Part shown: in pieces, positions 18,861 to 25,162 of the stretch | How positions within the stretch are numbered: position 1 is the first letter of the stretch | Layout of the letters: each line of letters starts with the position of its first letter | Origin: a virus | Virus record (IMG/VR): IMGVR_UViG_3300025086_000207 | Location: 1 to 25,919 of that record | Direction: 5' to 3' (one strand) | Length of the DNA: 25,919 nucleotides | The notes under the pieces: generated by a model | Seen by the model: only the letters and a program-made list of their open reading frames with translations | The model's database searches: none | What the model was told of the DNA's origin: nothing | Position numbers and translations under genes: made by a program

Positions 18861-19037
18861 ATGCTTAAAATTAAATTAATAGATTGCCCAGAATGCTCTG
18901 GAGAAGGTGAAGCAACATATGAGCGCGTTGTCGCCCAAGGGTTTAATAATCCTTTTCCAGAATATGAGGATTATAAAACTGAATGTGAAAACTGTTACGG
19001 TGTGGGGCAAATAGAGCCTCTGGAGGAGGATGAATAA
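18861..19037 (+). CDS. 58-aa DnaJ-type zinc-ribbon protein
   Basis: ATG 18861 behind GGGAGAG; TAA 19035-19037 overlaps the next ATG. Two CxxCxGxG motifs, CPECSGEG (C9/C12) and CENCYGVG (C42/C45), flank about 30 residues, the layout of half a DnaJ central zinc domain. In DnaJ such motifs bind zinc and help hold unfolded protein. Stand-alone versions occur in phages and may be protein- or RNA-binding adaptors. Zinc binding is a strong inference from the four cysteines; the partner is unknown. The acidic end (PLEEDE) contains the ribosome-binding site of the next gene. Confidence 0.7.
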   Translation: MLKIKLIDCPECSGEGEATYERVVAQGFNNPFPEYEDYKTECENCYGVGQIEPLEEDE

Positions 19038-19789
19038 TGACCCATATTGATGAAGAAACATTTGTTGAGCAAATTAAAATGGCCGCTGGTGCTGGGTTGT
19101 CACAAACTCAAATTGCAGAATTGTTTTTTGAAACTTCAAGTAAAATTCACAGAATATCTAAAAAACATAATATTCAATTTAATGCAAAAAGGATTAAAAG
19201 AAATGTCAAAAAATCAGAAAGTAAAAATGTTAATTGCGAGATTGGAGCGCACGACGGACATCATGTTGATGCAGGCGGAGATGCGCGGCAGACCGAACTT
19301 TTTCCAAAGTCTCGAAGAGCAAAAGCAAATACAGAAAATGTTAAAAGAAGAAGTTTACAAGATATTAAAGCTGAACTGATACGGCTTTGCGCGGCAACGA
19401 AATCGAAACAAGAAAGAGAGGAATATCTTGGCAGGGCAATGCTTGAGTACGAGCGTAATACTTGGCTCGATAAAAAACACGACCACTTTCCAAAAAACTT
19501 TAATGGGAAAGAGTTTATTAGCAAAAGTGTAAAAATTGCTGAAATTCAACGGCAAAAATATAATAAAAAACAAATGCAAAGATTGCTGGATGTGTTTCCT
19601 GACGAAGCAGAATTGTCATCGACTGAAGTTGCGGCACTGGTCGGTGAAAGTGTGTCACGCACCAGCAGCTACCTAAACAAATTGGTGGATAATGACATGA
19701 TTATTCGTGAAAGACGTTTGGTTAACGTCGATCAAAACTATGGGCGCGGTAAGAAACAGCACCGCTGGATTTATTGGAAAGATAAGTAA
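19037..19789 (+). CDS. helix-turn-helix plus winged-helix DNA-binding protein (250 aa)
   Basis: 250 aa. Residues about 7-48 form an HTH (EQIKMAAGAGLSQTQIAELF, then KIHRISKKHNIQF). A basic linker (55-105) follows, then a helical middle (106-175) and a C-terminal winged helix (about 185-250), including LSSTEVAALVGESVSRTSSY and LNKLVDNDMIIRERR. Two DNA-binding ends suggest a regulator or a replication initiator-like protein; it lies just before the replication module. The linker residues 56-105 look atypical, and another frame codes a plausible 58-aa protein across them (19203-19379). The protein may therefore be a fusion, or the junction may hide a frameshift. Confidence 0.65.
   Translation: MTHIDEETFVEQIKMAAGAGLSQTQIAELFFETSSKIHRISKKHNIQFNAKRIKRNVKKSESKNVNCEIGAHDGHHVDAGGDARQTELFPKSRRAKANTENVKRRSLQDIKAELIRLCAATKSKQEREEYLGRAMLEYERNTWLDKKHDHFPKNFNGKEFISKSVKIAEIQRQKYNKKQMQRLLDVFPDEAELSSTEVAALVGESVSRTSSYLNKLVDNDMIIRERRLVNVDQNYGRGKKQHRWIYWKDK
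19203..19379 (+). CDS. nested 58-aa ORF in the +1 frame (candidate overprinted gene)
   Basis: Lies wholly inside the 250-aa DNA-binding gene. AAAAAGGA ends 9 bases before its ATG, a better site than many accepted genes here. The product, MSKNQKVKMLIARLERTTDI then MLMQAEMRGRPNFFQSLEEQ and KMLKEEVYKILK, is a credible amphipathic helical protein. The main frame over the same bases gives a Ser/Asn/Asp/His-rich stretch less like folded protein. Genuine overprinting, a past fusion of two genes with a third between, or chance are all possible. Confidence 0.4.
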   Translation: MSKNQKVKMLIARLERTTDIMLMQAEMRGRPNFFQSLEEQKQIQKMLKEEVYKILKLN

Positions 19790-22558: not shown

Positions 22559-22602
22559 AACAGGAGCGCCCCTAAAAACCCATGAAAAAAAGGAGCAGGG
22601 AA

Positions 22603-24498
22603 ATGGTAGCAAAATCAATTAAAGAAAGCAAGTTCCCCATTGCGTATTGGTCGGAATATAGCCAGCCAATCATATCAAGCCTAGAATTAAAAAAAACAAG
22701 TCAGGGAGAATTTCATGGGCCGTGTCCAAATTGTTCCGGCGTGGATAGGTTTTGGATTAAAGAATTTAATGGTGAAGTTTTAGTAAATTGCAGGAAATGC
22801 CAAGACTATAAAGCAATTAAAGACAAATTAAAGGATATGTCTTTGTGGCCGACGCAATCAAGTAAGCCGCCAGAAATTGCAGTGCAGCCAATCAATTGGC
22901 CGGAAAGTAACGATATGTCCAAGCATCCATACTTACAAAAAAAGAAACTCAGCCTGCACAATGCAAAAATCGAAGGCGATAAACTTGTAATATCTATCAT
23001 AGATGTGACGGGTAAGCGCGTCGGCTACCAGTATATCGACGCGGAGGGCGATAAGAAGTTTAGCTATAATATGCCCGTGGCGGGTCATTTTAGCGTCATA
23101 GGTGGCCCAATTAAGGATTTCGCTTACATCACTGAGGGGTGGGCAAATGCGGCGACAATACACGAAGCCACAGACAAACCCGCAATATTTGCATTGAGCG
23201 CAAATAATATACCGTCAGTGGTTGATGCAATATCTCAGTCAAAACCCAAGTGTGAGCTTGTAGTTGCCGGAGATAACGACGAGGCGGGCCGTAAGGCGTG
23301 TGAAGCTACGTTTGAGCAACACGGCGTGGAATATATTTTACCAGAGCAGGAGGGCTGGGATTTCTCAGACCTGTGGGTCATCCAAGGCAGGGAAGCCACC
23401 AGAAAGGCGTTAACCGTCGCTAACGTGATGGACCAAATATTTATGCCGGAGGATGCAGTACCGCAACTCTCAAGGAACTACCTTATAAAGAGGTGGCTGA
23501 CGGAGGGCGGTATGTCCGTCATTTACGGGCAATCAAACGTGGGCAAATCTTTCTTCGCGCTGGATATGGGCTGGCACGTCGGCGGAGATAACGATTGGAA
23601 CGGCAGTAAGGTAAATGGCGGATCTGTATTATATTTAGCGACTGAGGGGGGTATGGCGTTCCACAATAGGGTCGTAGCCCTAAAACAGCATTACCCTAAC
23701 CAGAACAACGTTAAATTGGCTGTCAGGCCGTCTCCAGTAAACTTATTAGACCCAGATGTTGACATGGCGTCACTCATAAAACTTTGCGCAGAAATATCTA
23801 AACGACACGGCCCACTCAAAATGATCGTAGTTGACACGCTCAGTCGCGCAATGTCGGGCGGCAATGAGAATGCACCAGAGGCGATGACAAGTGTTATCTC
23901 GAATTGCGATAAACTCAGGGTTATTACCAAGGCGCACGTCTCAATTGTGCATCATTCGGGGAAGGATAAAGCCGCTGGTGCGCGTGGGCATAGCTCACTT
24001 CGTGCGGCTACCGATTCTGAGATAGAGCTAGAACACGACGAAGTTACGGGGCTGCGCACAGCGAAAGCCACCAAGCAGCGCGATATGGAAACTGGAACAG
24101 TCTTTACGTTTAAGCTTAAAGTGGTTGAGCTTGGCATTGATGAGGACGGAGATGCCGTCACAACGTGTGTCATCCATGAGGCCAGCGAGAGTGAAATTGC
24201 CGAAGCCAGCAAGCCAAAGATAAAGGGCAAGAACCAGCTTATCATGCGCAACGCATTTACCCAACTTAGGGGTGAGGGCGTGGGTCAGCCAAATCATGCG
24301 GGGGCTGGATTCCCAGAACCAAGAACGTATTGGATGATAAAGGAAGAGGATCTCAGAAACCATTTCTTGGGTAAGGTGACGAACGCCAGCAATCCAAGAT
24401 CTAGCTACAAGCAGGCGATTGATGCGCTGATGAGTGCCGGACATTTGGTGCAAAACGATGGATTTGTGTGGTTTTTGGATAGTGAGGGGAAATGCTGA
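22603..24498 (+). CDS. primase-helicase (zinc finger, TOPRIM, RecA-type ATPase)
   Basis: 631 aa from ATG 22603: AGGAG at 22591-22595 sits 7 bases before it, whereas the in-frame ATG 22582 would include that site in its own codons. Zinc finger C41xxC44...C63xxC66 (CPNC, CRKC). TOPRIM: ITEGWANAAT (176-185) and AGDNDEAGRK (222-231). RecA/RepA-like ATPase: Walker A GQSNVGKS (309-316), Walker B MIVVDTLSRA (407-416), HHSGKD (450-455) and GARGHSSL (459-466). It would prime and unwind phage DNA like a fused gp4/DnaG-DnaB. The C-terminal about 90 residues look like a winged-helix. An origin-like repeat cluster begins at its stop. Confidence 0.9.
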   Translation: MVAKSIKESKFPIAYWSEYSQPIISSLELKKTSQGEFHGPCPNCSGVDRFWIKEFNGEVLVNCRKCQDYKAIKDKLKDMSLWPTQSSKPPEIAVQPINWPESNDMSKHPYLQKKKLSLHNAKIEGDKLVISIIDVTGKRVGYQYIDAEGDKKFSYNMPVAGHFSVIGGPIKDFAYITEGWANAATIHEATDKPAIFALSANNIPSVVDAISQSKPKCELVVAGDNDEAGRKACEATFEQHGVEYILPEQEGWDFSDLWVIQGREATRKALTVANVMDQIFMPEDAVPQLSRNYLIKRWLTEGGMSVIYGQSNVGKSFFALDMGWHVGGDNDWNGSKVNGGSVLYLATEGGMAFHNRVVALKQHYPNQNNVKLAVRPSPVNLLDPDVDMASLIKLCAEISKRHGPLKMIVVDTLSRAMSGGNENAPEAMTSVISNCDKLRVITKAHVSIVHHSGKDKAAGARGHSSLRAATDSEIELEHDEVTGLRTAKATKQRDMETGTVFTFKLKVVELGIDEDGDAVTTCVIHEASESEIAEASKPKIKGKNQLIMRNAFTQLRGEGVGQPNHAGAGFPEPRTYWMIKEEDLRNHFLGKVTNASNPRSSYKQAIDALMSAGHLVQNDGFVWFLDSEGKC

Positions 24499-24674
24499 AG
24501 TGTATGAAAAGTGTATGAATTGGGGTTGTAATAAAAACAATGACTTAGACGGCCAATTCATACGTTTCATACGTTTTCCTACAGTAATTCCTACGAAACC
24601 ATAAAGTGTATGAATGTAGGAATATACCTTTAGGTATTCCTACAATTCCTACAATGGGCAGATTGGAGTTTAAT
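24499..24674 (+). other. candidate replication origin (heptamer-rich non-coding region)
   Basis: A gene-free 176-bp gap directly after the primase-helicase. It holds ten GTA(T/G)GAA heptamers in both orientations (24502-24652), an AT-rich stretch (24528-24545) and an imperfect palindrome (24615-24644). Dense short iterons next to the helicase loader/helicase gene are typical of phage and plasmid origins. Binding by the HTH/winged-helix protein or the primase-helicase itself is inference. Confidence 0.55.
24502..24652 (+). repeat. ten-copy GTAKGAA iteron cluster
   Basis: Forward copies: GTATGAA at 24502, 24513, 24608; GTAGGAA at 24616. Reverse copies: TTCATAC at 24557, 24566; TTCCTAC at 24576, 24588, 24637, 24646. 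Within each group the start-to-start spacing is 8-12 bp, near one helical turn. Flanks are also shared (AAGTGTATGAA three times). An inverted pair, TGTAGGAATATACC with GGTATTCCTACA, could form a hairpin (24615-24644). Confidence 0.85.
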
Positions 24675-24851
24675 ATGAGTGAGGCGAGGACGTTTGATGA
24701 GAAGCTTAACTCTTGCCGCGATATTGAAGAGCTTGAGGGTTTCGCTAACCGCCGTCGCTTTAATCCTGCGTTGCCCAAGTGGTCGGAGGATGAAAGACGA
24801 AAGATAATATTTAGAAAAGCGGAAATGATAAACAAAAGGAAAAAGAAATGA
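24675..24851 (+). CDS. small basic protein (58 aa)
   Basis: 58 aa from ATG 24675, chosen over in-frame ATG 24606 because the latter would run through the iterons and TTGGAG sits 5-9 bases before 24675. Starts MSEARTFDEKLNSCRDIEEL, continues with FANRRRFNPALPKWSEDERR and ends in Lys/Arg (NKRKKK). A two-helix, DNA-binding-like small protein; no family recognised. ATGA overlap with the next gene. Confidence 0.6.
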   Translation: MSEARTFDEKLNSCRDIEELEGFANRRRFNPALPKWSEDERRKIIFRKAEMINKRKKK

Positions 24852-25162
24852 ACGACAAGGTTATACCGACTGAGAAGAAAATTGTTTTGCCGGAAAATGT
24901 AAGGTCGAGCGTTTTGCTTGAGGCTGGTGAACTTATCAATGGTGCGCGCCAAATACATTACGGACAGCCAAAAGAAAACTTTGAAACGACTGCCGCATTA
25001 TTTGGTGCATACTTGGGGTGTGATATTAGCGCCGCAGACGTGTGTCACCTAATGGCGCTTCTCAAAATTGCGAGGCTGCGCAATGGTGGCCATAGGGATT
25101 CGAGCGTGGACAGTTGTGGGTATATGGCGCTGGGTGCGGAAATGTCAGACGCGGGGACTTGA
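24848..25162 (+). CDS. DUF6378-like protein (104 aa)
   Basis: 104 aa. Contains LLEAGELINGARQIHYGQPK, ENFETTAALFGAYLG, then ADVCHLMALLKIARL and GHRDSSVDSCGYMALGAEMS. This matches the phage family DUF6378, whose helical pattern, with acidic residues spaced for metal (E26, E43, D96-type positions), recalls MazG-like nucleotide pyrophosphohydrolases. The MazG link is a family-level suspicion, not shown here. It may tune nucleotide pools during replication. The stop overlaps the -35 of the promoter for the structured RNA. Confidence 0.7.
   Translation: MNDKVIPTEKKIVLPENVRSSVLLEAGELINGARQIHYGQPKENFETTAALFGAYLGCDISAADVCHLMALLKIARLRNGGHRDSSVDSCGYMALGAEMSDAGT

Follow-up and report, generated by a model that had tools for sequence, protein, structure and literature searches.

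The P4 α protein is a single polypeptide with a primase, a helicase and a C-terminal origin-binding domain. The oriV of the IncQ plasmid RSF1010 contains iterons together with hairpins that are used for priming. In the SaPI Rep and Cch2 systems, the C-terminal domain of the protein binds iterons located directly 3′ of the helicase gene (PMC7581432). In PLE, replication requires that RepA and ori be a cognate pair, and swaps of the origin have been connected with attack by a nuclease directed at the origin (PMC8263062).

Here we describe an array of heptamers that follows the gene for a primase-helicase (PH) of a marine phage. The array is very probably the replication origin of the phage, and comparison of relatives points to the PH winged helix as the part that would bind the heptamers, base 1 being recognized by residue 606 and base 5 by residue 611. 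Like the helicases of SaPI rep-ori and SCCmec Cch2 (Staphylococcus), PH would be a self-loading helicase; its gene has short iterons directly on the 3′ side and encodes a C-terminal DNA-binding domain, the latter according to a structural model. The SaPI Rep and Cch2 helicases have DUF927 or D5_N/Primase_Cterm domains, whereas PH has an RSF1010-RepA-like AAA_25 helicase. Unlike them, the phage helicase has a Toprim or different primase part fused at its N terminus, and the phage array has 8–18 sites in a fixed inverted layout with an IHF-type site and a palindrome of conserved core. As in PLE, a group of Vibrio cholerae phage satellites, the DNA-binding domain covaries with the origin, but PLE RepA is a different initiator that acts with three semi-palindromic iterons of ~30 bp, and its covariation involves a few whole-domain alleles rather than single residues and single bases in dozens of lineages. 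RSF1010 has a related helicase, RepA (1g8y, E 8e-8), which is the sole PDB relative of PH by sequence. In that plasmid a separate RepC binds the iterons and the helicase and primase are separate, whereas in PH the helicase, the primase and the proposed reader are in one chain. P4 α has a similar one-chain arrangement of primase, helicase and C-terminal origin-binding part but belongs to a different helicase superfamily and has different repeats. The helicase family, the IHF site, the palindrome and the residue-to-base rule make the phage system new relative to SaPI Rep/ori and PLE RepA/ori. No previous account of this array emerged from the open PMC papers searched, and the palindrome core appeared only in unrelated papers among the matches listed.

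Structure of the Array

The window analyzed is the complete IMG/VR record IMGVR_UViG_3300025086_000207 (25,919 bp, classed as linear). It contains podovirus-type structural genes, including an SU10-like portal (Pfam) whose nearest relative, at 46%, is in an Octadecabacter phage, and a replication block in which the last gene encodes PH. Because the proteins examined include no recognized terminase, the record is probably a fragment of a phage genome, and the first-pass annotation, which placed the array in a gap of "the genome," overstated its extent.

That annotation described ten GTAKGAA heptamers, four forward and six reverse, in 151 bp (24502–24652); its positions and strands are exact, and a recount confirmed the two variants, five GTATGAA and five GTAGGAA, and the start-to-start spacing of 8–12 bp within groups. 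The sites form four blocks. Block 1 (24502–24519, plus strand) has two forward GTATGAA sites at 24502 and 24513 and is placed alike in relatives. Block 2 (24557–24594, minus strand) comprises four reverse sites, GTATGAA at 24557 and 24566 and GTAGGAA at 24576 and 24588. Block 3 (24608–24622, plus strand), with GTATGAA at 24608 and GTAGGAA at 24616, lies at the left arm of a palindrome, the right arm of which corresponds to block 4 (24637–24652, minus strand), with reverse GTAGGAA sites at 24637 and 24646. The proposed count over the whole record gave 14 matches as compared with 5.8 in shuffled sequences, and none of 100 shuffles reached 14. The four matches outside the array are all single and scattered over the record, and the array is the sole heptamer cluster in the 25,919 bp; ten sites in 151 bp have a Poisson probability of ~5e-22 per window of that size. 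One short word is thus present in many copies in a single intergenic cluster (10 in 151 bp), as in an iteron origin. The region had also been called AT-rich, which is correct (33.8% GC in the array and 38% in the spacer as compared with 44.7% in the record) but mild, since ~5% of 151-bp windows are equally low; a clear separate AT-rich unwinding element is not apparent. The GC skew, computed to place the origin, follows the gene strand and is uninformative.

Two features are present in addition to the heptamers. An IHF-like site, AAACAATGACTTA (24535–24547, plus strand), with one mismatch to WATCAANNNNTTR, lies within the 37-bp spacer that separates block 1 from block 2. The palindrome TGTAGGAATA-TACCTTTAGG-TATTCCTACA (24615–24644, inverted repeat I10) has the core CC-TTTA-GG, which recurs in relatives.

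Structure of the Primase-Helicase

PH (22582–24498, plus strand) has 638 residues and consists of a Zn-ribbon, a Toprim domain, a RepA-like hexameric helicase of the AAA_25 family and a C-terminal winged helix; the Pfam matches are AAA_25 (3e-34), Toprim_3 (2e-8) and Zn_Ribbon_Prim (0.001). AlphaFold2, supplied with 47 aligned relatives, models the C-terminal 104 residues (535–638, encoded by 24184–24495, plus strand) as a winged helix, at a mean pLDDT of 91. The model comprises helices and a two-stranded wing, and its recognition helix spans residues 605–618 (24394–24435, plus strand), including Arg606 (24397–24399) and Gln611 (24412–24414). The same recognition helix is present in a model of full-length PH of lower confidence (pTM 0.49). 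A Foldseek search with the C-terminal domain returned no solved structure below E 0.001. The VIA list for the domain is headed by ORC1 winged helices with a Z of 8.9, a value close to the most that unrelated folds typically reach, and we therefore make no claim as to its family. PH is the proposed initiator and the putative iteron reader.

In phages such as CRP-831 and CRP-811 (L048, L050 and L132–L155), a related helicase and winged helix follow an N-terminal part that is longer and of another type, apparently through exchange of the primase half.

The Array in Relatives of PH

Relatives of PH were drawn from viral contigs and phage isolates. In most, an array is located immediately 3′ of the PH stop codon, and the word differs by lineage: GTATGAA, GTATAAA, CTACAAA, GTACCAA, ATACCAA, GTAACAA, ATAACAT, TTAACAT, GTCCTAA, GTCGGAA, GTAGAAA, GTGTAAA, ATGTGAA and others. 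The common layout is two forward sites, ~46 bp, four reverse sites, two forward sites, the palindrome and two reverse sites, with sites starting near positions 1, 11, 57, 66, 76, 88, 108, 117, 136 and 144 after the stop codon. Additional sites are present in some lineages and one or two are missing in others; the arrays have 8–18 sites, and the geometry and place of the sites are common to many lineages whose words share little sequence. The first-pass annotation had made the origin reading depend on conservation of the heptamers in relatives with the same gene order. They are retained at 95–100% PH identity, but at 41–63% only the place and layout are kept, the word and its presumed reading residue in PH being replaced together. 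In one close relative (L014), the third block is changed.

A group of relatives at ~73% identity has no array directly after the PH gene. That this group lacks the array was considered and rejected, because in the contigs checked an array with a matching word is located elsewhere, ahead of the same small gene as in the window. This small conserved gene (24675–24851, plus strand) encodes an ELEGFANRR motif and lies 3′ of the array; its homologs were used to locate the separated arrays. It follows the array in many lineages, even where the array is distant from the PH gene. The longer frame of the small protein (24606–24851) matched no Pfam or PHROGs family. Farther downstream, 24848–25162 encodes a DUF6378 protein (1e-25); PHROGs labels a related family phosphofructokinase, and the relative in CRP-831 is annotated as a dATP/dGTP diphosphohydrolase.

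The company of the array and the small gene raises the question of whether the array is an operator through which PH or another protein regulates that gene, or through which PH regulates itself, with replication starting elsewhere. Many iteron initiators do autoregulate, as is established for iteron plasmids. An operator would hardly need 8–18 inverted sites, an IHF site and a palindrome, however; promoter-like sites in the region do not exceed chance, the array in the PH-adjacent layout is downstream rather than upstream of the PH gene, and the proposed reader is the replicative helicase itself. We consider an operator unlikely and an iteron origin, as first proposed, the best reading of the array.

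The IHF-type site also recurs. With up to one mismatch it is present in the first spacer of 19 of 26 spacer lineages, as compared with a mean of 1.8 and a maximum of 7 in 2000 shuffles and a maximum of 11 for scrambled versions of the consensus. The sites are mostly at one distance from block 2; the consensus is loose, and some lineages have weak matches only.

A palindrome with the core CC-TTTA-GG or one similar to it separates blocks 3 and 4 in most lineages. The stems vary in sequence among lineages but remain complementary, which is also what a transcription terminator or RNA element would show, with the repeats a by-product of the hairpin. There is no T-run, terminator-like site or Rfam match at this position, and 6 of the 10 sites are outside the palindrome, so that this explanation was discarded as scarcely credible. 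A few lineages have other cores, for example GTGTCT-GAA-AGACAC. Close relatives can differ in having CC-TTTA-GG or GTGTCT-GAA-AGACAC and similar cores (L014, L225 near 6400, L250 and L253), as if the palindrome block had been swapped as a unit.

Comparable clusters were seen beyond the close relatives. Arrays of CGGTACA in Idiomarinaceae phage 1N2-2 (L255:4581–4880) and of GGGGACA in Salicola phage CGphi29 (L256:4572–4850), each with a palindrome, follow genes for distantly related primase-helicases. In Rhizobium phage 16-3, which has been studied for a long time (L259:4014–4400), fourteen copies of CGTGACA are located directly 3′ of the RepA-like gene p101 and represent a candidate origin. 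PH-type arrays are present in several alphaproteobacterial and other genomes, and word clusters follow RepA-like helicase genes in Acidocella, Skermanella, Pseudolabrys, Acetobacteraceae and other bacteria (L267, L269, L271, L272, L274–L278, L280 and L281), several with palindromes that have CC..GG cores. Four other phages with AAA_25 proteins (Salmonella, Microcystis, Caulobacter and BcepGomr) have no significant word cluster directly downstream, and the layout is therefore not universal in the AAA_25 superfamily.

Coupling between the Recognition Helix and the Word

The consensus words were aligned on the common pattern XTNNNAA, in a register set partly by hand and blind to residue 606. Among 102 distinct PHs, all 54 with Arg (47), Lys (5) or His (2) at position 606 have G as base 1 of the word. 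The other 48 all have A, T or C: Asn is paired with A (16), Ser with A (14), T (2) or C (1), Trp with T (7), Asp with C (7) and Thr with C (1). There are no exceptions to this split in the 102 PHs. In 37 lineage representatives of <90% identity, the division of Arg/Lys/His against G is 24/0/0/13 (Fisher, 3e-10). Column 606 ranks first of 245 alignment columns for base 1, with a normalized mutual information of 0.82 as compared with 0.36 for the next. When the tree was computed from the helicase part only, leaving out the winged helix, residue 606 and base 1 each change 15 times, and nine of nine independent pairs on supported branches agree with the rule (p 0.004). Column 611 leads the 245 columns for base 5: in the 37 lineages, Arg611 is paired with C in 14 of 14 cases and Asp or Glu with G in 4 of 4, pairings that would fit contacts to the opposite strand. 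The pairings Arg-G, Asn-A and Asp-C are those expected for direct contacts.

Two groups of near-identical proteins show the relationship most directly. Those with NPNQSY or NPSQSY accompany ATGTTAT sites and those with NPWQSY accompany ATGTTA-not-T sites; similarly, NPRSTYKQA is found with GTATKAA and NKSQVYKQA with TTATGAT. One or two residues of the recognition helix predict which word each phage uses. Most phages have PH and the array side by side, so joint inheritance as a cassette could account for some of the coupling. Against pure linkage, only column 606 within the linked C terminus is coupled, and the coupling holds when PH and the array are apart.

The first-pass annotation named both PH and a 250-residue HTH protein (19037–19789) as candidate binders. 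If the latter or some other factor read the heptamers, the coupling to PH would be mere linkage. The HTH protein has a winged-helix-like C terminus, to judge from weak Pfam matches, and in the separated group a homolog of 27–30% identity adjoins the PH gene. No homolog was found in the CRP genomes examined, however, and only three of the 34 array loci with upstream sequence of 3.5 kb or more yielded one. The word is coupled instead to one column of the PH recognition helix in many lineages, and this coupling survives separation of the PH gene from the array. The HTH protein was rejected as the reader because it was not found at most array loci examined; a reader other than PH is very unlikely, and of the two candidates PH is favored. 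Two binding proteins had been suggested for the T and G variants, with one protein of relaxed specificity as the alternative. The variants differ at base 4 of a single word, which is less tightly coupled to the helix, so that one relaxed reader suffices and a second is unsupported.

Prediction of Words at Separated Arrays

Predictions for contigs of the ~73% group were written before the contigs were fetched, and the arrays were then found through the small gene and not through the word. They fitted all seven phages in which an array could be located, two with Ser606 (L102 and L113) and five with Arg606 (L068, L073, L116, L127 and L129); in each, the array is distant from the PH gene. Of these, L113, L068, L116 and L127 were not named in advance but were covered by the rule as stated beforehand, and L073, L116 and L068 were not fully blind, because a pattern search before the fetch had shown pairs of GTATGAA. 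An array could not be found in seven further predicted or added contigs (L103, L090, L092, L123, L122, L107 and L066). Three loci that were not used in building the rule also fit it: L264 (Ser606, with C or A as the first base), L265 (Lys606, GTCCTAA) and the near-identical pair L300/L301 (Ala606, with T more than G).

A Model for Initiation

We infer that replication starts at the array. The assignment of PH as its cognate initiator comes from comparison, in which the word covaries with residues 606 and 611. The most economical model is that of a self-loading helicase-primase whose C-terminal winged helix would enable it to recognize its own origin. (i) The winged helix would bind each heptamer through contacts of residue 606 with base 1 and of residue 611 with base 5, the latter probably on the opposite strand. 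(ii) Across the spacer, blocks 1 and 2 point toward each other, and bending of the DNA at the IHF site would bring them together. (iii) Helicase rings would form on the array and be loaded onto the opened DNA. (iv) Priming by the fused primase, perhaps at the palindrome, would follow, and a host polymerase would then take over.

DnaA boxes are common, although not universal, in iteron-type theta origins. In 37 arrays they show no excess over shuffles, which fits a helicase that loads itself. No family-A DNA polymerase was found in 24 records, so that such a polymerase was rejected as an explanation of which phages have arrays. The takeover by a host polymerase is proposed because neither DnaA boxes in excess nor a family-A polymerase was found.

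The origins of most environmental phages are, to our knowledge, unknown. Here the putative origin, its proposed reader and the likely contacts for two bases were readable from sequence alone and could be predicted beforehand, and the rule offers a means of typing phage origins in metagenomes. Swaps of single residues and single bases would be a direct test of origin specificity across these widespread phages and prophages. A more tentative proposal, which we regard as possible but less probable than not, is that these phages use an open-ended address code for origins, in which a few helix residues read the word by a simple rule of residue to base and lineages repeatedly rewrite word and reader together, giving many mutually exclusive types. 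That a replication origin should be rewritten so often raises the question of what drives the change; if there is such a code, the pressure may come from satellites, from other phages in the same infection or from nucleases directed at the origin.
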